Position numbers and translations under genes: made by a program. Below are positions 28,281-63,230 of a DNA stretch of 64,000 nucleotides, piece by piece. The notes beneath the pieces were generated by a model, which was not told the origin of the DNA, did no database searches, and was given only the letters and a program-made list of their open reading frames with translations. How positions within the stretch are numbered: the stretch's first letter is position 1; each line of letters opens with the position of its first letter. Source of the stretch: Gilliamella sp. ESL0405 (GTDB lineage Bacteria; Pseudomonadota; Gammaproteobacteria; Enterobacterales; Orbaceae); the NCBI RefSeq assembly GCF_019469205.1, contig NZ_CP048265.1:2108001-2172000 (forward strand), given 5' to 3'.

Positions 28281-28420
28281 TAGCAAAACGCTTTGTAAGG
28301 TACTGCGTGGGGGGGTATAGGAAGATTTCGCTCAATATACACCTATTCGGACTCTGACATCGTAATGAAAAAACCACCAAACCCACAGCGTCCGAAACCT
28401 GCGGACTAAAAACCTACAAC
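28281..28420. repeat. decayed copy of the structured inter-array module (left edge)
   Basis: This stretch aligns with the 3' half of the GC-rich module found at 29690, 30699, 31535 and 32545. It keeps recognisable pieces of the AGGGGGATTT hairpin (now mispaired) and of the inverted repeat: TTCGGACTCTG left arm with one change, and an intact CAGCGTCCGAA right arm. It has no array to its left, so it is the worn outer edge of the tandem block. Confidence 0.75.
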
Positions 28421-28436
28421 TTTCAATTAAGGTATA

Positions 28437-28545
28437 AAACCTTGTCAAGAAGTTTCAGAAAATATAGGTGTTTAAGCAAAAAAATAAAGTTTTGCCAAAA
28501 ACTTTCAGAAAACACCCATGTTTTCGTATAAAACAAAAGTTTTAG
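28437..28545. repeat. AT-rich direct-repeat pair (trailer side of array 1)
   Basis: Two related copies of about 45 bases built on TTGTCAAGAAGTTTCAGAAA. The first continues to ATATAGGTGTTTAAG, and the second (TTGCCAAAAACTTTCAGAAA) continues to ACACCCATGTTTT. GGTGTTT and AACACC can pair across the two copies. The same pair recurs beside arrays 2 and 4 and right of module 4, and single copies lie at 62830 and 63079. Confidence 0.75.
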
Positions 28546-28558
28546 ATATTTCCAAAAT

Positions 28559-29486
28559 ATCCTAAACCCCTTATGCAGCTGTAAATATGTTAGATAAAGC
28601 TTTTGGTAAAGGTTCTGATTTCTTAACGGCCTATGCGGCTGCAAAGAGAGTTTTGAGGCGGTTGGAAAGCCTCCAAAATTTCTAAACAGCCTATGCGGCT
28701 GCAAAGAATGAGATAAATCAAGTGCCCTTTTATTTATATTTCTAAACAGCCTATGCGGCTGCAAAGGATCAGACCCTTATCTTCTTCCGAAGCAAAGCTT
28801 TCTAAACAGCCTATGCGGCTGCAAAGCATCTTTAAATGCAACATGGGATGCGGTGGAATTTCTAAACAGCCTATGCGGCTGCAAAGAATTCCATATTTTC
28901 GCATTGTTGATTTGGATATTTCTAAACAGCCTATGCGGCTGCAAAGGATGGTTTTTTAAACCGAAAGCAAACGGTATGTTTCTAAACAGCCTATGCGGCT
29001 GCAAAGACAGCGCTAAACCGGGCGGTTTTACTGGTCATTTTCTAAACAGCCTATGCGGCTGCAAAGGCACCAAACTGTGTTTTAGCTGATTCCGTGTTTT
29101 TCTAAACAGCCTATGCGGCTGCAAAGTTTATAATTATTAGATAGACGATTTAAAGCCTTTTCTAAACAGCCTATGCGGCTGCAAAGTTTAATGGGTTAAG
29201 GCAATAAAAAACCGCACATTTCTAAACAGCCTATGCGGCTGCAAAGGGTACAGATATCACTTTCGAGCCGACAAAATTTTTCTAAACAGCCTATGCGGCT
29301 GCAAAGGGGCGGACGATCGCACATTAGACGTTGAAGGCTTTCTAAACAGCCTATGCGGCTGCAAAGGAGGAAAGCTCGGCTCTTCTCTGGGGTCGAAATT
29401 TCTAAACAGCCTATGCGGCTGCAAAGCGTGAACTAGAAAATCAATCACTAGAACGTCATTTCTAAACAGCCTATGCGGCTGCAAAG
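28559..29486 (-). CRISPR. CRISPR array 1, type I-F-like, 15 repeats plus a degenerate end repeat
   Basis: Repeats of 28 bases recur every 60 bases, leaving 32-base spacers. The plus-strand repeat begins TTTCTAAACAGCC and ends GGCTGCAAAG; read on the minus strand it ends TTTAGAAA, the type I-F 5' handle form. Repeats start at 28619 and every 60 bases to 29459; the fourteen from 28679 on are identical. The 28619 repeat has a few changes, and a strongly degenerate repeat at 28559 marks the trailer. Fifteen spacers are bounded. The degenerate end is on the left, so the leader is on the right and transcription is leftward. The repeat's CAGCC/GGCTG arms form a 5-bp stem. No cas genes are nearby. 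Confidence 0.97.
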
Positions 29487-29670
29487 TAGAATCTTACATA
29501 CTATAAACATCGTTTATAAAAACACAAAGGGCAATTTTAGGTTTAAAAACCCTTTTTTTTAACGCTTTTGCAATATATTGATTTTTAATGGTTTTATTTT
29601 TAGCTTAAAAAAAGGGTTAAAAAGTTTGTATTTTAAACTCCATTGCTATTTCTAAACGACTTACCATTAA
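29487..29670 (-). promoter_or_regulatory. CRISPR leader 1
   Basis: AT-rich leader nearly identical in all four arrays. Fifteen bases from the last repeat lies the perfect palindrome TATAAAC-ATC-GTTTATA (29502-29518). On the minus strand, AATCAATATATTG (complement of 29571-29583) matches the IHF consensus WATCAA-N4-TTR exactly, starting 85 bases from the array. A GGTTT-AAA-AACC hairpin followed by eight Ts lies on the plus strand and could stop transcription coming the other way. Near 29649 is a half-repeat, TTTCTAAACGACTTA. Confidence 0.85.
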
Positions 29671-29689
29671 CTTTCTCAAAAACAAACAA

Positions 29690-29968
29690 GTGCACCAGAT
29701 TGCGCCTTCACAAAGCGCCGACAACTGAGAGAGGTCAGCACGCCAAACAGGGATGTTTGGCGAGGCGCTGCTTTGTCCGGAACAAATCAGCGCCGGTGCG
29801 TTAAGACCGAACGAAGGCGGAGGGCAGTCGAAGACCGCTTTGGGTGGTGCTGCGAGGGGGTTATTAGGGGGATTTCGCATAAAATCCCCCTATTCGGACG
29901 CTGACATCGTAATGAAAATATCGACCAATTAACAGCGTCCGAAACCTGCGGATTAAAAACCCGCACCT
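29690..29968. repeat. GC-rich structured module 1
   Basis: One of four near-identical copies upstream of the leaders. It can fold as a three-way junction (29710-29776). The outer stem is ACAA plus AGCGCC against GGCGCT plus TTGT with a bulge. The inner hairpins are CTGA/TCAG and CGCCAAACA-GGGA-TGTTTGGCG (29741-29762). Then come the perfect hairpin AGGGGGATTT-cgcata-AAATCCCCCT (29866-29891) and the inverted repeat TTCGGACGCTG (29893-29903) with CAGCGTCCGAA (29933-29943). An 87-codon frame also crosses it on the minus strand (29617-29880), starting MRNPPNNPLAAPP. Whether it acts as RNA, DNA or a short gene cannot be decided from sequence. GC content is far above the neighbours. Confidence 0.85.
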
Positions 29969-29982
29969 TACAAAGAAAGTAA

Positions 29983-30080
29983 AAACCTTGTCAAAAACTT
30001 TCAGAAAATATAGGTGTTTAAGCAAAAAACACAAACCTTTGTCAAAAAGTTTCAGAAAACGCCCATGTTTTAGTATAAAA
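29983..30080. repeat. AT-rich direct-repeat pair (trailer side of array 2)
   Basis: Two copies of the CTTGTCAAAAACTTTCAGAAA-type repeat, ending in ATATAGGTGTTTAAG and ACGCCCATGTTTT respectively. The arrangement is as beside array 1. Confidence 0.75.
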
Positions 30081-30106
30081 ACAAAAGTTTTAGATATTTC
30101 AAAAAT

Positions 30107-30494
30107 ATCCTAACCCCTTTATGCAGCTGTAAAGCTATATCATGACCTAGACAGTGAACAGCTTCATTTCTAAACAGCTTATACAGCCGTGAAGTAAGGG
30201 AGATGGCAATCGCTCTATATCAAGAATTTCTAAACAGCTTATGCAGCTTTAAAGGGTATAAATGGATTTGGCAAAAAACAAGGCGATTTCTAAACAGCTT
30301 ATGCAGCTTTAAAGTTTTCGTAGTAAAAAACTATCCCAGTCACAATTTTCTAAACAGCTTATGCAGCTTTAAAGGGTTATCCGATTCGTGAAGCTGGGGC
30401 GCTAATTTTCTAAACAGCTTATGCAGCTTTAAAGAAAAGCGGAAAAGTCAGCACTCAGTTGGTTATTTTCTAAACAGCTTATGCAGCTTTAAAG
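30107..30494 (-). CRISPR. CRISPR array 2, seven repeats including a degenerate end
   Basis: 28-base repeats at 30107 (degenerate), 30167, 30227, 30287, 30347, 30407 and 30467 bound six 32-base spacers. The five leader-side repeats share the core CAGCTTATGCAGCTTTAAAG (type A). The oldest full repeat, at 30167, instead has the form ending ATACAGCCGTGAAG (type B), the form that dominates the young end of array 4. Its first (trailer) spacer is not the one shared by arrays 1, 3 and 4. Transcription is leftward from leader 2. Confidence 0.96.
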
Positions 30495-30678
30495 TAGAAA
30501 CCTACATACTATAAACATCGTTTATAAAAACATAAAGGGCAATTTTAGGTTTAAAAACCCTTTTTTTTAACGCTTTTGCAATATATTGATTTTTAATAGT
30601 TTTATTTTTAGCCAAAAAAAAGGGTTCATAAAGTTTGTATTTTAAACTCCACGACTATTTCTAAACGACTTACCATTA
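30495..30678 (-). promoter_or_regulatory. CRISPR leader 2
   Basis: Near-identical to leader 1. The TATAAAC-ATC-GTTTATA palindrome sits at the same distance from the array, and the IHF match AATCAATATATTG is the complement of 30579-30591, again 85 bases from the last repeat. Confidence 0.85.
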
Positions 30679-30698
30679 ATTTTCTCAAAAACAAACAA

Positions 30699-30977
30699 GT
30701 GCACCAGATTGCGCCTTCACAAAGCGCCGACAACTGAGAGAGGTCAGCACGCCAAACAGGGATGTTTGGCGAGGCGCTGCTTTGTCCGGAACAAATCAGC
30801 GCCGGTGCGTTAAGACCGAACGAAGGCGGAGGGCAGTCGAAGACCGCTTTGGGTGGTGCTGCGAGGGGGTTATTAGGGGGATTTCGCACAAAATCCCCCT
30901 ATTCGGACGCTGACACCGTATTGAAAATATCGACTAATTAACAGCGTCCGAAACCTGCGGATTAAAAACCCGCAACT
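30699..30977. repeat. GC-rich structured module 2
   Basis: Offset by 1009 bases from module 1 and almost identical. All stems are intact. The visible changes are in loops: the AGGGGGATTT hairpin loop reads CGCACA rather than CGCATA, and the spacer of the TTCGGACGCTG inverted repeat has changes at two or three positions. The minus-strand 87-codon frame is kept (30626-30889) with only C-terminal substitutions. Confidence 0.85.
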
Positions 30978-30991
30978 TACAAAGAAAGTAA

Positions 30992-31050
30992 AAACCTTGT
31001 CAAGAACTTTCAGAAAACACCCATGTTTTCGTATAAAACAAAAGTTTTAG
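30992..31050. repeat. single AT-rich direct repeat (trailer side of array 3)
   Basis: Only one copy is present here: it starts like the first copy of the other pairs (AAAACCTTGTCAAGAACTTT) and ends like the second (ACACCCATGTTTTCG). This is the product expected from recombination between the two copies, with loss of the roughly 50 bases between them. Confidence 0.7.
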
Positions 31051-31063
31051 ATATTTCCAAAAT

Positions 31064-31331
31064 ATCCTAAACCCCTTATGCAGCTGTAAAGATGATAGAT
31101 AAAGCTTTTGGTAAGGGTTCTGATTTTTAAACGGCTTATACAGCTTTCAAGATAAATAGATATTTAGCTATTAAAAAAGCGATTTTCTAAGCAGCTTATG
31201 CAGCTTTAAAGCGTGGGCATATTCTCAATCTACGTTCATTAAATTTCTAAACAGCTTATGCAGCTTTAAAGAACGCCCACTGTTCTCGGAGTGTCTAAAA
31301 TATTTTCTAAACAGCTTATGCAGCTTTAAAG
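31064..31331 (-). CRISPR. CRISPR array 3, five repeats including a degenerate end
   Basis: 28-base repeats at 31064 (degenerate), 31124 (several changes), 31184, 31244 and 31304 bound four 32-base spacers. The leader-side repeats are type A (CAGCTTATGCAGCTTTAAAG). The trailer spacer at 31092-31123 is nearly the same as the trailer spacers of arrays 1 and 4, so these arrays share an ancestor. This is the shortest array. Confidence 0.95.
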
Positions 31332-31515
31332 TAGAAACCTACATACTATAAACATCGTTTATAAAAACACAAAGGGCAATTTTAGGTTTAAAAACCCTTT
31401 TTTCTAACGATTTTGCAATATATTGATTTTTAATGGTTTTATTTTTAGCTAAAAAAAAGGGTTTAAAAAGTTTGTATTTTGAACTTCATTATTAATTCTA
31501 AACGATTAACCATTA
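31332..31515 (-). promoter_or_regulatory. CRISPR leader 3
   Basis: Same layout as leader 1. The palindrome TATAAAC-ATC-GTTTATA is followed by the IHF match (complement of 31416-31428), again 85 bases from the array. A few substitutions occur in the distal part. Confidence 0.85.
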
Positions 31516-31534
31516 CCTCCCCACAAAAACAAAC

Positions 31535-31815
31535 AAGTGTACCAGACCGCACCTTCACAAAGCGCCGACAACTGAGAGAGGTCAGCACGCCAAACAAGGA
31601 TGTTTGGCGAGGCGCTGCTTTGTCCGGAACAAATCAGCGCCGGTGCGTCAAGACCGAACGAAGGCGGAGGGCAGTCGAAGACCGCTTTGGGTGGTGCTGC
31701 GAGGGGGTTATTAGGGGGATTTCGCACCAAATCCCCCTAATTCGGACGCTAACACCGTATTGAAAATATCAACCAATTAACAGCGTCCGAAACCTGCGGA
31801 TTAAAAACCCGCAAC
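31535..31815. repeat. GC-rich structured module 3
   Basis: Third copy. Compared with module 1 the tip of the CGCCAAACA/TGTTTGGCG hairpin reads AGGA instead of GGGA, and the AGGGGGATTT hairpin loop is CGCACC. The inverted repeat has lost its innermost pair (TTCGGACGCTA). Minus-strand frame 31506-31730 starts MVRNPPNN and ends differently from copies 1 and 2, in ...FLWGGNG. Confidence 0.85.
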
Positions 31816-31829
31816 TTACAAAGAAAGTA

Positions 31830-31940
31830 AAAACCTTGTCAAAAACTTTCAGAAAATATAGGTGTTTAAGCAAAAAACACAAACTATTGTCAAAAAGTTT
31901 CAGAAAACACCCATGTTTCAGTATGAAAACAAAAATTTAA
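31830..31940. repeat. AT-rich direct-repeat pair (trailer side of array 4)
   Basis: Two copies of the TTGTCAAAAACTTTCAGAAA-type repeat, with ATATAGGTGTTTAAG after the first and ACACCCATGTTTC after the second. Confidence 0.75.
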
Positions 31941-31953
31941 GATATTTTTAAAA

Positions 31954-32341
31954 TATCCAAATCCGTTATGCAGCCGCAAAGATGCCAGATAAAGCTTTTG
32001 GTAAAGGTTCTGATTTCTAAACAGCTTATGCAGCTTTCAAGAGTTTGTTGCTAATGTATGCCGAAAACGGTGCTTTCTAAACAGCTTATGCAGCTTTAAA
32101 GATATACAATATTCGGTGCTATTTCATTTTGCTTTTCTAAACAGCTTATACAGCCGTGAAGGATTTGTTGTACCAACGAAAACTAAACGCCGTTTTCTAA
32201 ACAGCTTATACAACCGTGAAGCCAGTCCGCCGTGTGAAAACACTCTTTCAATCTTTCTAAACAGCTTATACAGCCGTGAAGGAACATGCATTTAGTGAAG
32301 TACTTTTTTTACCTTTCTAAACAGCTTATACAGCCGTGAAG
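31954..32341 (-). CRISPR. CRISPR array 4, seven repeats including a degenerate end
   Basis: 28-base repeats at 31954 (degenerate), 32014, 32074, 32134, 32194, 32254 and 32314 bound six 32-base spacers. The older repeats at 32014 and 32074 are of type A (ending ATGCAGCTTTAAAG or TTCAAG). The four leader-side repeats are type B (ending ATACAGCCGTGAAG; one has ATACAACC). The trailer spacer (31982-32013) is shared with arrays 1 and 3. In RNA form, type B gives CGGCT/AGCTG pairing. Confidence 0.96.
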
Positions 32342-32525
32342 TAGAATCTTACATACTATAAACATCGTTTATAAAAACACAAAGGGCAATTTTAGGTTTA
32401 AAAACCCTTTTTTCTAACGCTTCCACAATATATTGATTTTTAATGGTTTTATTTTTAGCTAAAAAAAAGGGTTTAAAAAGTTTGTATTTTGAACTTCATT
32501 ACTAATTCTAAACGATTAACCATTA
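32342..32525 (-). promoter_or_regulatory. CRISPR leader 4
   Basis: Same layout as the other leaders, with the palindrome and the IHF match (complement of 32426-32438) at the same distances. The bases just beside the IHF site differ (TTCCACAATA rather than TTTTGCAATA), while the site itself is unchanged. Confidence 0.85.
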
Positions 32526-32544
32526 CCTCCCCACAAAAACAAAC

Positions 32545-32824
32545 AAATGCACCAGACCGCACCTTCACAAAGCGCCGACAACTGAGAGAGGTCAGCACGC
32601 CAAACAGGGATGTTTGGCGAGGCGCTGCTTTGTCCGGAACAAATCAGCGCCGGTGCGTTAAGACCGAACGAAGGCGGAGGGCAGTCGAAGACCGCTTTGG
32701 GTGGTGCTGCGAGGGGGTTATTAGGGGGATTTCGCATAAAATCCCCCTATTCGGACGCTGACATCGTAATGAAAATATCGACCAATTAACAGCGTCCGAA
32801 ACCTGCGGATTAAAAACCCGCACC
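32545..32824. repeat. GC-rich structured module 4
   Basis: Fourth intact copy. The hairpin tip GGGA and the 11-bp arms TTCGGACGCTG/CAGCGTCCGAA are as in module 1. The minus-strand frame 32516-32737 is open (MRNPPNN to FLWGGNG), and so is a plus-strand frame (32489-32761). Both strands being open is expected of biased GC-rich sequence and does not itself prove a gene. Confidence 0.85.
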
Positions 32825-32839
32825 TTACAAAGAAAGTAA

Positions 32840-32950
32840 AAACCTTGTCAAAAACTTTCAGAAAATATAGGTGTTTAAGCAAAAAACACAAACCCTTGTC
32901 AAAAAGTTTAAGAAAACACCCATGTTTCAGTATAAAAACAAAAATTTAAG
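32840..32950. repeat. AT-rich direct-repeat pair right of module 4
   Basis: Two copies in the usual order (AACCTTGTCAAAAACTTTCA..., then CCCTTGTCAAAAAGTTTAAG...ACACCCATG). In the other units an array follows at this point; here none does. Confidence 0.75.
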
Positions 32951-32954
32951 ATAT

Positions 32955-33058
32955 TTTTAAAATATCTAAATCCGCCTAATTCAGACGTAGACACCAAAAT
33001 GAAAATATCAACCAACTAACAGCGTCCGAAACCTACAAACCAAAAAGCGACAACTTCC
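32955..33058. repeat. ghost of a fifth array/module
   Basis: AAAATATCTAAATCCG (about 32958-32973) equals the sequence that opens the degenerate trailer repeat of array 4. It then jumps directly to a worn copy of the module end: AATTCAGACG for the left arm, an intact CAGCGTCCGAA, and the CCTACAAACC tail. An array, its leader and most of a module appear to have been deleted between these two points. Confidence 0.6.
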
Positions 33059-33080
33059 AATAAAAGATCAAATCTATTTT

Positions 33081-33110
33081 TTGTACCTTGCGCAGCAACA
33101 AGTATATAAT
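33081..33110 (+). promoter_or_regulatory. putative promoter of waaG
   Basis: TTGTAC (33081-33086) and a perfect TATAAT (33105-33110) with an 18-base spacer, about 28 bases before the waaG start. It lies just outside the CRISPR block. Confidence 0.55.
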
Positions 33111-33137
33111 ACTCCTTTCACACTTGAGGCAATGTGC

Positions 33138-34262
33138 ATGCAACTAGCTTTTTGTATCTATAAATATTTTCCTTACGGCGGTTTGCAACGTGATTTCTTG
33201 CAAATTGCCCGAGCTTGTCACGCTAAAGGGCATAAAGTTCGTGTTTATGTTATGCAGTGGCAAGGCGATAAACCGACTGAGTTTGACATTATTTTAGTCC
33301 CGAAAAAGGGGCTATCAAATCATAGCCGGAATCTAGCTTATTACCATTGGGTCGAAGATCATTTACAGACACATCCGGTTGATTGTGTCGTTGGCTTTAA
33401 TAAAATGCCGGGGTTAGATGTCTATTTTGCCGGCGATACGTGTTTTGCTGAGAAAGTCTCCCACAAAGGCTTTTTTTATAGATTGTCTAAACGCTGTAAA
33501 CACTATCTGGCATTTGAAGATGCGGTATTTAATCCGCAGCATGACACCAAAATTATGGTGCTAACAAAGCAACAAATTAGCGATTTTGAAAAATATTACC
33601 ATACTCAAGCATCAAGATTTGTTTTACTGCCACCCGGTATAGCAAAAGATCGGCAATATCATATTGATTCACCCATTAAACGCCAGCAATTTAGGCAAGC
33701 CAATCACATTGCGCAAGATGCTTTTGTGATTGTACAAATTGGTTCTGACTTTAAACGAAAAGGCGTTGATCGCACATTAATTGCGATTGCCGCTTTGCCC
33801 GAAGCGTTAAAAAAACAGGTGTGCTATTTGGTTGTCGGGCAAGATAAACCCGATAATTACCAAAAAATGGCGAAACAGCTGGGTATTTTTAATCAAGTCC
33901 GTTTTTTCTCTGGGCGAAATGATATCCCCGATTTTCTCTTTAGCGCAGATCTACTACTGCACCCAGCTCGACAAGAAGCCGCTGGTATGGTTTTAATCGA
34001 GGCTCTAGCTGCTGGTGTGTCGGTGATTGTAACCGGGATAGCCGGTTATGCTTATCATATTACAGATGCAAATGCAGGTGTGGTACTTAGTGAGCCTTTT
34101 GATCAATCAGAATTAAATAGCACACTGGAAAATGCTATCACTAATCAAGCACAGCGAGCTGCATGGCATCATAATGCGATTGAATATGGGCAAAACGCCG
34201 ATTTATATCACCTTGCTGAGCGTGCTGCCGATATTATATTAGGTTGTCATCATTATGAATGA
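33138..34262 (+). CDS. waaG: lipopolysaccharide core glucosyltransferase WaaG
   Basis: GT-B glycosyltransferase that adds glucose to heptose II of the LPS inner core from UDP-glucose. From the ATG at 33138 (TGAGG 8 bases upstream) it has 374 residues, the family length, starting MQLAFCIYKYFPYGGLQRDF. Diagnostic segments are VVGFNKMPGLDVYFAGD, QIGSDFKRKGVDR and HPARQEAAGMVLIEALAAG. It overlaps waaP by 8 bases, so the two are coupled. Longer in-frame starts reach back into the promoter. Confidence 0.96.
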   Translation: MQLAFCIYKYFPYGGLQRDFLQIARACHAKGHKVRVYVMQWQGDKPTEFDIILVPKKGLSNHSRNLAYYHWVEDHLQTHPVDCVVGFNKMPGLDVYFAGDTCFAEKVSHKGFFYRLSKRCKHYLAFEDAVFNPQHDTKIMVLTKQQISDFEKYYHTQASRFVLLPPGIAKDRQYHIDSPIKRQQFRQANHIAQDAFVIVQIGSDFKRKGVDRTLIAIAALPEALKKQVCYLVVGQDKPDNYQKMAKQLGIFNQVRFFSGRNDIPDFLFSADLLLHPARQEAAGMVLIEALAAGVSVIVTGIAGYAYHITDANAGVVLSEPFDQSELNSTLENAITNQAQRAAWHHNAIEYGQNADLYHLAERAADIILGCHHYE

Positions 34263-35058
34263 AATTATACTCAAATCGCCTTTTGAGAATTTATGGAAAG
34301 GCAGAGATCCGTTTAGCGAAGTTGAGCAGATTTCCGGTGAAGTTTATCGGGCGGTTAAACAGCGCAAAACGTTAAATTTTAAACTTGATGATGAATCTTA
34401 CTTTATTAAAATTCACCGTGGCATAACGGTAAAAGAGATCGTCAAAAATTTATTGTCCTTGAGATTACCGGTGTTAGACGCCAAACAAGAATGGACAGCC
34501 ATTCACCGTTTAGCACAAGCAGGGGTAAATACCATGGACGGGCGAGCTTTTGGTCGTAAGGGGTTAAACCCACTAACACGGCACTCGTTTATTATTACCA
34601 AAGATCTTAACCCGACAGTAAGTTTAGAGGATTTTACTCGCTCTTGGTTAACCACGCCACCTAGCTATCATCTGAAACGTTCTTTAATCATCTATCTGGC
34701 AAAAATGACCGCCAAAATGCATGCCGCTGGGGTCAATCACCGTGATTGTTATTTATGCCATTTTTTATTGGATTTACCGTTATTTGAACATCATCAGCAA
34801 ATTAAATTATCCGTCATTGATCTGCATCGGGCGCAAACCCGAAAACGAGTGCCAACCCGTTGGCGTGATAAAGATTTGATTGGGCTGTATTTTTCATCGA
34901 CCAAAATCGGGTTAACTCAACGTGATATTTGGCTATTTTTAAAAACTTATTTCAATAAACCATTAAAAACGATTTTGCATGATGAACATAAACTGTTAAC
35001 AACTGCGGAAAAAAAATCAGCGCGGATTGCAAAACGAACTGAAAAATATCAGCTTTAA
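34255..35058 (+). CDS. waaP: LPS core heptose I kinase WaaP
   Basis: Kinase that phosphorylates heptose I of the LPS inner core, important for outer-membrane stability. The 267-residue protein has the kinase-like catalytic segments NHRDCYLCHFLLD and VIDLHRAQTRKRVPTRWRDK, and the signature RDKDLIGLYFSS. The N-terminal SPFENLWKGRDPFSEVE matches E. coli RfaP. The start overlaps the end of waaG (ATGA arrangement). waaQ is not present. Confidence 0.96.
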   Translation: MNEIILKSPFENLWKGRDPFSEVEQISGEVYRAVKQRKTLNFKLDDESYFIKIHRGITVKEIVKNLLSLRLPVLDAKQEWTAIHRLAQAGVNTMDGRAFGRKGLNPLTRHSFIITKDLNPTVSLEDFTRSWLTTPPSYHLKRSLIIYLAKMTAKMHAAGVNHRDCYLCHFLLDLPLFEHHQQIKLSVIDLHRAQTRKRVPTRWRDKDLIGLYFSSTKIGLTQRDIWLFLKTYFNKPLKTILHDEHKLLTTAEKKSARIAKRTEKYQL

Positions 35059-35073
35059 TAATAAGGAAATCCT

Positions 35074-36708
35074 ATGTTTATTGAACAAATTGAGATTACC
35101 GGATTTAGAGGGATTAGTCAGTTATCTTTAACATTTAATCCGGAATCAAGTGTGCTTATTGGTGAAAACCGTTGGGGAAGATCGAGCTTAATTAGCGCTT
35201 TAAAGTTGTTATCACTCGATAACAAATTTTATCAATTTGTCGATAGCGATTTTTATCATGATAGAGATGAAAACTATGGCGATAAGATCAGTATTGTCGT
35301 CACTTATTGCGAATCATATTCAACTGAGCTCGACAGTGAAGTGTATGCCCGCTTACGCCCAATGGCTTCGCCAAACGAATCGGATCATTTGTACCGTCTT
35401 TGTTACCAAATTAGCGCTGATAAACAAGATAATGGTATTTTCACTCAGCATCGATTAATCGACCCACACGGCAAGGCATTATCAACTGAACAATCGCAAC
35501 CATTAATTGCGATTTTAATTAGCCTTAATCCGGTCATGGCGCTGAAAAACTCGATAAATACGGATAATTTGCCGATCACCAATCAACCTTTGTCACAATA
35601 CTATATCGAGCAACTATCCAATCAGTTAAAAACCCATAGTGCGCAATTGAGTCAAGATGAATTAAGTCGTGGGCTTAATGCTGCTCGTGCGTTATTAGAG
35701 TACTATTTTGCCGATTATCAGCATCGTTATCATTACAAACAAGCCAATAAACAAGCCAGTCCACGTATTGAGGACTGGAACTCGCTTGAGCGGATCAACA
35801 ATATTTTAGATGATCTTGATAACAGCTATTTGCGTAGTGCGTTGTTAGGCATATTTGGCTCGATTATTGATGCCAAAGGCAATAATCCTTTGTCACAAAG
35901 TGCCGTGCCGATTTTGATACTGGAAGAGCCGGAAAGCCAACTTCATCCGATTATTTTAGCGGTTGGGTTTCGTTTACTTAAAAACTTACCGACGCAAAAG
36001 ATTATTACCTCTAATTCAAGTGATTTAGTCGCATTATTCCCACTGGAAAATATTTATCGATTGATTCGCATGCCCGATCAAATCGTGACAAAATATATTC
36101 CACCTAAATCATTGAGTGTTGATGATAGCCGGCGAATTATGTTCCATATTTTTTACCGTCGAGCCAGTGCGATATTTGCCCGTAGTTGGTTATTAGTTGA
36201 AGGCGAAACCGAAGTTTGGTTGTTGCGAGAATTAGCCGAGCAAAGTGGCTATCACTTAAGCTCTGAAGGGGTACAATTTATTGAGTTTGCTCAGTGTGGC
36301 TTAAAACCGCTGATTAAATATGCCAATAAAATGGGCATCCATTGGTATGTCATCACCGACGGCGATATGGCGGGTAAAAAGTATGCCGATATTGTTAAAT
36401 CACTGGCACCGCCTGATAAAGATCCGAGTGAGTACCTCACGGTCTTACCGGCGCGAGATATTGAGAATTTTTTATTTAAACATGGCTTTAGTCATGTTTA
36501 TAAACTCGCCGCTTACAATACAGTGCAACATATTGATATGTCAGTACCAAAAATCATTCAAAAAGCAATTCATCGACGTTCAAAACCCGATTTAGCCATA
36601 GCGGTTTGTGATGATGCTAAGTCACGGGGAGTGGGTGCCATTCCTCGTTTATTGATTGATACTTTTGCTAAAATTGTAAAATCTTCAATGCAATTAGTGT
36701 CAAAATAA
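35074..36708 (+). CDS. ybjD: OLD-family ATP-dependent nuclease, YbjD-like
   Basis: Overcoming-lysogenisation-defect family protein: an ABC-type ATPase fused to a TOPRIM nuclease. The 544-residue protein starts MFIEQIEITGFRGISQLSLT. Walker A-like GENRWGRSS lies near residue 32 and carries Arg where the family and E. coli YbjD have Lys (GENAWGKSS). The Walker B region ILILEEPESQLHPI and the TOPRIM motifs LLVEGETEVWLL and ITDGDMAGKKY are present. It follows waaP after 15 bases and has a terminator. OLD proteins can act in phage defence or DNA repair; the role here is inferred only from family. Confidence 0.88.
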   Translation: MFIEQIEITGFRGISQLSLTFNPESSVLIGENRWGRSSLISALKLLSLDNKFYQFVDSDFYHDRDENYGDKISIVVTYCESYSTELDSEVYARLRPMASPNESDHLYRLCYQISADKQDNGIFTQHRLIDPHGKALSTEQSQPLIAILISLNPVMALKNSINTDNLPITNQPLSQYYIEQLSNQLKTHSAQLSQDELSRGLNAARALLEYYFADYQHRYHYKQANKQASPRIEDWNSLERINNILDDLDNSYLRSALLGIFGSIIDAKGNNPLSQSAVPILILEEPESQLHPIILAVGFRLLKNLPTQKIITSNSSDLVALFPLENIYRLIRMPDQIVTKYIPPKSLSVDDSRRIMFHIFYRRASAIFARSWLLVEGETEVWLLRELAEQSGYHLSSEGVQFIEFAQCGLKPLIKYANKMGIHWYVITDGDMAGKKYADIVKSLAPPDKDPSEYLTVLPARDIENFLFKHGFSHVYKLAAYNTVQHIDMSVPKIIQKAIHRRSKPDLAIAVCDDAKSRGVGAIPRLLIDTFAKIVKSSMQLVSK

Positions 36709-59067: not shown

Positions 59068-60414
59068 TTACGCTGCATCATTTAAGTCAGCTAGATTACG
59101 ATCTTTTACTTCCGGCATACAGATAGCCGAGATAAGACCAATACACGAGTAAACAATAATCATGACAACAATTGGCCACCAGTCTTGAACTATATTGCAA
59201 AAAATACCGGCTAAAATTGGACCAAATCCCACCGCAATAAGACCACCGGCTTCTTTGGAAATCGCCATTTGCGTAAATCGATTTCTGGCGCCAAAAATTT
59301 CAGCCATGGTAATGTTTTCTAGAGCAAATAACCCTAATACTGCAATATTATGAATAAGAATCAAACATAACGTAATAGTATTAACTGAATTATCTTTATC
59401 AACAATTATCGATAACATCGGATAAGCAAGCAATATCGCTGACAGCGTCATAATAATATAGGGAATACGGCGACCAATTTTATCGGATAACCAACCTAAT
59501 AAAGGAATGGTAAAAAAGCCAACAATCGAGCTTATCATCAACGCATCTGTTGGGATGCTTTTATTAAATAATAGTGCTTGCACTAAATAACCGGCTAAAA
59601 AAGTTTGAATCAATCCGGAATTGCCGGCTTGACCAAAACGCAGTCCGGTGGCCAACCAGAACGATTTGCTTTTAAACATTTCAAGCAAAGAAATAGGTTT
59701 AACTGGTTGCTTATCGACTTGTTGATGGCTCTGTTTATCATTTACTTCATCAAATACCGGGCTTTCTTTTAAATTCAAGCGTAACCAAATGGCAAAAATC
59801 ATCACCACAACACTGGCAATAAACGGCACTCGCCAGCCCCAAGCCACTAACTGATCTTTGTCTAATAAAAAGAACATCAACGCCCATATTGCGGTTGCAC
59901 TTAATGTACCGCAGTTAGTTCCCATTGCCACCAATGAAGAGACGATTCCTCTTTTCCCCTTTGGTGCATATTCAGCTAACATGGTGCCGGCGCCAGAAAT
60001 TTCAGCCCCTGCCCCTAAGCCCTGAACAATACGTAAAATAACCAGCATCAACGGGGCAAAAATACCGACTTGCGCATAGGTTGGTAAAACCCCAATTAAC
60101 GTTGTGCATACGCCCATCATGGTAATAGTAATAAACAGAACTTTTTTTCGACCAATGGCATCCCCCATTCGACCAAACACAAAAGCCCCAATAATTCTAG
60201 CCACATAACCAGCACCATAAGTGCCCATTGCCAAAATCAACGCCATGATTGCTGAATGTTCAGGGAAGAATATTTCATGAAAAACCAGTGCTGCCCCTAA
60301 AGAGTACAACTGAAAGTCCATAAACTCTAATGCCGTACCAAGCCAACCAGAAACCGCTGCTTTAACCAGATCCGAAGTGTTTCTTTCACTTTTATTATTT
60401 CCTATATTACTCAT
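59068..60414 (-). CDS. ydfJ: MFS transporter YdfJ
   Basis: Twelve-helix transporter of the metabolite:proton symporter type, 448 residues. The signature between helices 2 and 3, GRMGDAIGRKKVLF, and IVQGLGAGAEISGAG in helix 4 are typical. In E. coli ydfJ is annotated as a pseudogene; here the gene is full length and open. It presumably imports the sugar acid handled by RspA and YdfI. Confidence 0.88.
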   Translation of the reverse strand: MSNIGNNKSERNTSDLVKAAVSGWLGTALEFMDFQLYSLGAALVFHEIFFPEHSAIMALILAMGTYGAGYVARIIGAFVFGRMGDAIGRKKVLFITITMMGVCTTLIGVLPTYAQVGIFAPLMLVILRIVQGLGAGAEISGAGTMLAEYAPKGKRGIVSSLVAMGTNCGTLSATAIWALMFFLLDKDQLVAWGWRVPFIASVVVMIFAIWLRLNLKESPVFDEVNDKQSHQQVDKQPVKPISLLEMFKSKSFWLATGLRFGQAGNSGLIQTFLAGYLVQALLFNKSIPTDALMISSIVGFFTIPLLGWLSDKIGRRIPYIIMTLSAILLAYPMLSIIVDKDNSVNTITLCLILIHNIAVLGLFALENITMAEIFGARNRFTQMAISKEAGGLIAVGFGPILAGIFCNIVQDWWPIVVMIIVYSCIGLISAICMPEVKDRNLADLNDAA

Positions 60415-62821: not shown

Positions 62822-62981
62822 AACAAGCAAACCTTGTCAAGAAGTTTCAGAAAATATATACGTTTAAGTAAAAAACAGAGGAATGTGCTGATAATAGATC
62901 TTTCTAATAAAAAATTTCATCAATAAGTTAATTAAATTGTTCGATAGTTTAGGTTTCCAGTAAATAGCGTATCGGTATAGC
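62822..62981. repeat. 160-bp direct duplication, copy A
   Basis: Aligns without gaps to 63071-63230, offset 249 bases, with about six mismatches. It opens with the TTGTCAAGAAGTTTCAGAAA repeat also found beside the CRISPR arrays. The palindrome at its end has decayed here. Confidence 0.85.
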
Positions 62982-63070: not shown

Positions 63071-63230
63071 AACAAGCAAATCTTGTCAAGAAGTTTCAGA
63101 AAATATAGACGTTTAAGTAAAAAACAGAGGAATGTGCTGATAATGGATCTTTTTAATAAAAAATTTTATCAATAAGTTAATTAAATTGTTCGATAGTTTA
63201 GGTTTTCAGTAAATAGCGTATCGGTATAGC
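63071..63230. repeat. 160-bp direct duplication, copy B
   Basis: Second copy. Here the terminal palindrome AGCGTATC-N8-GATACGCT (63215-63238) is intact. Similarity continues for about 15 bases beyond the copy. The stretch between the copies (62982-63070) shows no gene. Confidence 0.85.

Follow-up and report, generated by a model that had tools for sequence, protein, structure and literature searches.

How CRISPR (clustered regularly interspaced short palindromic repeats) arrays multiply and stay usable far from the cas genes is an open question, and it is raised by a block of four arrays in Gilliamella sp. ESL0405, a member of a bee-gut genus. The block occupies positions 28318-33032 of a 64,000-nucleotide stretch of the chromosome (contig NZ_CP048265.1, 2,108,001 to 2,172,000; hereafter the window) and consists of four type I-F arrays, each with its own leader, and structured modules of ~440 bp between them. 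A preliminary description of the window had proposed that a cassette of array, leader and module was multiplied by recombination and is served by Cas proteins encoded elsewhere. The analysis presented here leads us to the reading, to which we assign a probability of roughly 70%, that module-leader-array cassettes were multiplied by recombination between modules, are still usable, and are served by one Cas operon. Unless marked as chromosomal or given in kb, positions refer to the window.

Layout of the block and of the CRISPR system in the genome

All four arrays lie on the minus strand. They contain 15, 6, 4, and 6 spacers when the degenerate terminal repeats are counted, the repeats are 28 nt, and all 31 window spacers are 32 nt long. 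Array 1 (28559-29486) has 16 repeats, of which the terminal one (28559-28586) is degenerate, and arrays 2 (30107-30494), 3 (31064-31331), and 4 (31954-32341) have seven, five, and seven repeats, respectively, including the terminal ones. The repeat sequence varies by array (GCAGCCGCATAGGCTG in array 1, AAAGCTGCATAAGCTG in most of arrays 2 and 3, and ACGGCTGTATAAGCTG at the leader end of array 4). The crRNA (CRISPR RNA) and leader direction is that of the minus strand, on which the GTTTAGAAA end is read and the array 1 repeat is CTTTGCAGCCGCATAGGCTGTTTAGAAA; as this is type I-F-like, the leaders are placed at the high-coordinate side of the arrays (29487-29640, 30495-30649, 31332-31485, and 32342-32495, minus strand). 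Leaders 2, 3, and 4 are each ~95% identical to leader 1. Read on the minus strand, the order module, half-repeat relic (see below), leader, array occurs four times, with partial modules at both ends of the block and a module start-to-start spacing of 1009, 838, and 1010 nt.

Type I-F arrays are expected to have 28-nt repeats, 32-nt spacers and a 5'-CC protospacer adjacent motif (PAM), and the crRNA 5' handle looked for in such arrays is of the UUUAGAAA type. The repeats described here are 28 nt long with a 5-bp stem and a TTTAGAAA-type 3' end, and are separated by 32-nt spacers. A search of the genome, a single contig of 2.81 Mb, identified one complete type I-F cas operon (cas1f, cas2/3f, csy1, csy2, csy3, and cas6f) at ~2048.5-2057.5 kb, 79-88 kb from the window block, in which all six genes score above the NCBIfam cut-offs. 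Single genome matches were obtained for cas1 (chromosomal position 2056707) and csy4 (2048488), both outside the window; the other cas genes were looked for in this operon only. The preliminary description was therefore upheld in what it reported for the block, namely four same-direction arrays and near-identical leaders alternating with modules in units of roughly 0.8-1.0 kb, as well as in its type I-F assignment and in placing the cas genes not nearby but elsewhere. A pair of leader-array units, with arrays of 3 and 5 spacers, follows cas6f (locus L026). A gap of ~0.8 kb between csy1 and cas2/3 (L105:5887-6701) contains no listed open frame of at least 150 amino acids. Type I-F3 CRISPR-associated transposons (Tn7-like) are not known to carry cas1 and cas2/3, and the full-length cas1f and cas2/3f found here do not fit this class.

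With a leader-plus-module query, 96 matches were found in the genome, many of them short pieces. In the stretches examined there are at least 21 arrays, at least 20 leaders, and at least 133 spacers (129 distinct), distributed over at least eight chromosomal loci (~59, 370-373, 1642-1645, 1652-1653, 1668, 1707-1709, 2047-2048, and, for the window block, 2136-2140 kb); 22 groups were counted as 21 arrays because one array is split by an insert. Twenty arrays have a leader, 19 of them a full one and one an internally deleted one. The only leaderless array (L021:7197-7463; chromosomal 1645196-1645462) has five repeats that are all different and looks like a decaying copy. At chromosomal positions 59136-59618 (L024:4137-4619), the position of a 32-nt spacer, exactly between two CRISPR repeats, is taken by 483 nt of phage-like DNA. 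Within this insert, a piece of 79 residues matches a tail completion/neck protein family, which raises the question whether it is a giant spacer or a product of recombination between array and phage.

In its cas genes (cas1f, cas2/3f, csy1-3, cas6f), repeats, spacer length, and 5'-CC PAM (see below) the system resembles type I-F (I-F1). It differs in having about 20 leader-array units at eight or more loci, 19 leaders joined to a structured repeat, and tandem cassettes. About 20 CRISPR arrays are also present in Methanocaldococcus jannaschii. According to the accessible part of the survey PMC12814883, duplication gives rise to the arrays of multi-array genomes, these arrays tend to have the leader-distal spacer in common, and distant arrays with the same repeat are also updated. 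Duplicated arrays with shared leader-distal spacers are found here as well, whereas, as far as that part of the source goes, the cassette with a separate structured repeat and the differences in repeat sequence between arrays set our genome apart. Multi-array genomes and array duplication are thus already known, and the cassette architecture appears new: in the literature searched, mostly outside subscription journals, neither cassettes linked to a structured repeat nor Gilliamella type I-F arrays were described, and the accessible parts of PMC12586679 and PMC9040601 do not describe such cassettes.

Module junctions and the probable copying of cassettes

Between the module and leader 1 lies a 14-nt relic of a CRISPR half-repeat without mismatches (29649-29662, minus strand). 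The other window units have such a relic at 30658-30671 (0 mismatches), 31495-31508, and 32505-32518 (three mismatches each). Throughout the genome, all 19 module-leader junctions carry a sequence like the last 14 nt of the CRISPR repeat at the same place within 1 nt; it is exact in seven, and differs by one mismatch in one, by two in six, by three in three, and by four in two. None of 4000 shuffled flanks reached 0 mismatches, most having 5-6, and the relic is clear in 14 of the 19 junctions. The cas-adjacent leader has no half-repeat relic. At the other end of the arrays, 18 of 21 terminal repeats pass into the left end of a module after about ...GCATAAG. The exceptions are at chromosomal positions 1642740, 1707751 (where the module is entered one spacer later), and the cas-adjacent 2047330, where the last repeat of the array is nearly full and borders on unrelated DNA.

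The module seems to split a CRISPR repeat, and with junctions this sharp an order of events can be proposed. The simplest reading, as far as sequence can tell, is that a module came to stand inside the terminal repeat between two tandem leader-array units and that this arrangement has been copied since. A leader-array pair would have been duplicated at the cas locus, the module would have ended up within the terminal repeat that separates these copies, and modules recombining with each other would then have multiplied the cassette in tandem and moved it elsewhere. The single Cas1-Cas2/3 set would add spacers at many leaders, Cas6f would cut all transcripts, the repeat hairpin being paired despite the drift of the repeat between arrays, and the Csy complex would use all guides. 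The module itself may be a passenger or a recombination substrate, and possibly an insulator between arrays.

The spacers preserve part of this history. One family of leader-distal spacers is shared by window arrays 1, 3, and 4 (the leader-distal spacer of array 3 being homologous to those of arrays 1 and 4) and by the arrays at 1708 and 1709 kb; a second is shared by the arrays at 59-60, 1644, 1645, and 1653 kb, and a third by the three arrays located at 370-373 kb. Four distal spacers (0, 0, 0, and 1 mismatch), but not the newest, are common to the arrays at 1708 and 1709 kb; arrays of this kind, sharing old spacers and differing in the newest, provide a natural test of independent spacer acquisition by copies. 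In a tree of 37 modules, the four window modules group together, next to one from 1642 kb, and many clusters, though not all, are grouped by place, with several supports below 0.5. Arrays at separate loci also share leader-distal spacers within the relatives G005 and G030 (0 and 5 mismatches). The shared spacers, the partly duplicated unit elsewhere and the module tree that mostly follows locus support the earlier proposal that the cassette was multiplied by recombination. By eye, a direct duplication of ~2.6 kb comprising leader, array, module, and neighboring sequence was seen in G030 (L172:1-3300).

Long near-identical repeats such as these are prone to misassembly, and the block could in principle be an assembly artefact. 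We regard this as highly improbable, as the genome is a single contig, the arrays hold spacers of their own apart from the shared distal ones, and leader-array units and modules are dispersed in the assemblies of relatives as well.

Spacer targets and repeat hairpins

To assess use of the arrays, 30 of the 31 window spacers and 79 of the 98 other spacers were used as queries against 35 genomes of the genus, and the 35 loci returned from relatives were rescanned with every distinct spacer 30 nt or longer, allowing up to six mismatches. The rescan gave 39 protospacer matches. As the loci had been chosen because they matched, the PAM, not the match, is the test: CC stands directly 5' in 28 of 39 cases, against a CC background of 3.3%, and reversed spacers gave no match in the same 35 loci. 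Twenty-five distinct spacers have a match, the best match carrying CC in 17 of them. Three window spacers match exactly (32/32), all with CC, at sites in an integrase gene, a gene for a CI-like repressor, and a third gene, for which the best PHROG is one without a function. For the newest spacer in array 1 there were matches at three loci, all with CC and with 2-3 mismatches. No match was found for 30 window spacers among 50,697 phage records, nor for four spacer seeds (22-26 nt) in IMG/VR by exact matching only.

The repeat hairpin was analyzed in 22 hand-picked distinct repeats (10 from this genome and 12 from relatives) with 500 shuffles. The 5-bp stem is paired in 88.2% of cells, 26 cells are changed on both sides (cell counts being inflated by the relatedness of the sequences), and the covariation score is 0.622; none of the shuffles was as high in any of these three measures. 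Slid versions of the stem reached at most 63.6% paired and 6 cells changed on both sides. The repeat hairpin is kept while the repeat sequence drifts between arrays. Because of the CC PAM at 28 of 39 matches and the repeat stems that stay paired, the arrays look usable in trans by the distant Cas set, and we infer that the window arrays are served by it.

The arrays away from the cas operon could alternatively be relics, that is, old duplicates no longer transcribed or updated, with the cas-adjacent arrays doing the work. Leaders were detected in at least 26 of the 35 genus genomes and cas6f in 21; both are present in 19, cas6f only in two, and leaders only in seven, and these seven leader-bearing genomes without a Csy4 match (two of them 67 and 81% complete) agree with relic arrays. 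So does one Csy4-less genome, G025, in which a leader is followed by a single terminal-type repeat and no spacer (L193:6591-6752). We nevertheless consider relic arrays improbable here. The leader-end repeats in the block are uniform, the stems stay paired, spacers match DNA of relatives with the right PAM, and array 1, with 15 spacers, is longer than either cas-adjacent array.

The module in Gilliamella and beyond

The module, a genus-wide repeat, is built from three parts: a ~40-nt repeat (R46) in one or two copies, a stretch that is palindromic (HP3), and a core with two hairpins. Over 300 nt, copies 2-4 in the window are 98, 79, and 99% identical to copy 1 without gaps. The core is located at 29699-29836, 30708-30845, 31549-31683, and 32559-32693 (plus strand), HP3 at 29863-29945, 30872-30954, 31710-31793, and 32720-32802, and R46 at 29987-30022 (minus strand), 30996-31035, 31835-31870, and 32844-32879. 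The partial modules at the block ends comprise HP3 and two ~40-nt repeats (left, 28318-28530) and an HP3 fragment (right, 32968-33032). Compared with its shuffles, the module stretch 29660-29960 has a far better fold on each strand (z -5.75 and -6.66). In a set of 31 chosen modules (12 from this genome and 19 from relatives; 500 shuffles), the two-hairpin structure is paired in 95.7% of cells and 46 cells are changed on both sides, which no shuffle reached; the structure was drawn from a window copy, which favors it over slid versions. Pair counts and pair-type counts were also above nearly all shuffles. The two adjacent hairpins are kept by compensatory change. No open frame of at least 100 amino acids was found within the modules, and the module had no match in plasmid sequences. 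Among 37 full module cores in the examined stretches, 19 immediately precede a leader; the other 18 stand in tandem, mostly with a period of ~457 nt. A module is found upstream of 19 of 20 leaders, the cas-adjacent leader being the sole exception.

On the strand opposite the crRNAs, the core is a borderline match to RF01731 (TwoAYGGAY). With relaxed filters, three of the four window modules scored 43.6-45.9 bits against a gathering cut-off of 43 (29736-29806 and 30745-30815, 43.6 bits each; 31583-31653, 45.9 bits), and core 4 had no match among those listed; with default filters at the gathering threshold, an Rfam search of the whole window gave no match, modules included. One of nine matches listed in other loci reached the cut-off. 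The matches mostly cover the core only (model positions 43-120 of 168), with scores at the cut-off. As described in the accessible parts of PMC2864571, PMC4333381, and PMC11701678, TwoAYGGAY shares with the module two adjacent hairpins, GGA-bearing loops and occurrence in Gammaproteobacteria, and CsrA binding has been proposed for it (PMC4333381). The module differs in being a tandem and dispersed repeat tied to CRISPR leaders. In the order, RF01731 was found at E <= 0.001 in 55 of 197 genomes, 40 of them above the cut-off and several with many copies; only two of the nine genus genomes drawn had a match in this stricter search. TwoAYGGAY is filed in Rfam as cis-regulatory; in several genomes of the order (e.g. 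L194-L199) it has the look of a dispersed repeat with many copies. Six loci outside the genus, of up to 3.2 kb, showed no regular repeats, a sample too small to generalize on a tie to CRISPR. A family of unknown function is thereby recast as a multi-copy repeat apparently tied to CRISPR leaders in one genus.

The relatives compared are other species, not strains of the same species, and their 32 leader units, from five relatives, were chosen because they held leaders or modules. A module lies within 260 nt upstream in 4 of 10 units of G005, 7 of 10 of G030, 1 of 4 of G025, 0 of 7 of G032, and 0 of 1 of G013. Outside this set, three leaders were found in G022: one (L174) has a module upstream in the same orientation as here, and two have an array-side module.

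Several observations weigh against copying by recombination between modules and service by one operon. In the relatives, only 12 of the 32 units have the upstream module, all 12 in the opposite orientation, and no leader of G005 or G030 has a relic better than three mismatches; the proposed order of events therefore does not cover the genus, and the module-leader link either arose more than once or was remodeled. In our genome, the relic is weak at 5 of 19 junctions (3-4 mismatches, with 15% of shuffles reaching <=4), and the 19 junctions, being copies of each other, represent few independent events. Recombination into a new locus would need a module already present there. Over their full length, as cut, the 1708 and 1709 kb units share 88.9% identity, a value lowered by differences in leader and module beyond the newest spacer. 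With respect to use, 11 of the 39 protospacer matches lack CC, array 3 has no match, and 25 of the distinct spacers matched overall, the window matches coming from arrays 1, 2, and 4. Two of the five stem measures do not beat shuffles: 232 of 500 shuffles had at least as many stem pairs with a change on both sides (3), and 405 of 500 at least as many further pair types (7). In 12 of 22 repeats the outermost stem pair fails.

The modules' presence beside leaders in two opposite orientations in different species also fits a mobile element resembling a MITE (miniature inverted-repeat transposable element) that inserts in terminal repeats or beside leaders and carries leader-array units, dispersal then being due to transposition. 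Module edges are alike in module-module tandems and module-array joins, with T..G tetramers at the joins (by eye), and TwoAYGGAY is multi-copy in many genomes of the order. However, the modules contain no open frame of 100 amino acids or more, and no target duplication was seen at an empty chromosomal site. The Y1 (RAYT/IS200-type) transposase family PF01797, the only transposase family searched for, had no match in the genome, whereas 5 of 14 control genomes were matched. We judge such an element unlikely. We are somewhat more doubtful that the structured repeat uses CRISPR terminal repeats as insertion points, making leader-array units mobile cassettes scattered in the genus; if true, banks of immune memory would be copied and scattered as units in a bacterial genus. 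A RAYT/REP (repetitive extragenic palindrome) or IS200-type mobile repeat was rejected for want of a PF01797 match.

Twenty-two loci encode a relative of one window protein (20 in Gilliamella and two in Frischella). In two of them, from Gilliamella sp. wkB171 (L059) and a Gilliamella metagenome-assembled genome (L060), the flanking transporter and glycosyltransferase genes are ~0.67-0.69 kb apart, and the interval between them contains no leader, module, or repeat match. Relative to these two loci, the block is an insertion. Most other relatives among the 22 loci lack the transporter at the block site, and L049 carries leader-like as well as module-like matches of its own, located ~1.3-2.2 kb upstream of the glycosyltransferase gene.

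R46 also stands alone (L036:2811-3296, L031:3163-3902, and window 62833-62870 and 63082-63119), in tandems ~110 or 176 nt apart, and weak R46 matches occur in Frischella japonica (L063). To the right of the block, window 33062-35250, comprising the flank and the next two genes, is 97-99% identical to the same F. japonica locus. The match breaks off 59 residues into the third gene, and the full-length relative of this gene in F. japonica shares 58% identity with it, raising the question of a recent transfer of a lipopolysaccharide-type segment.

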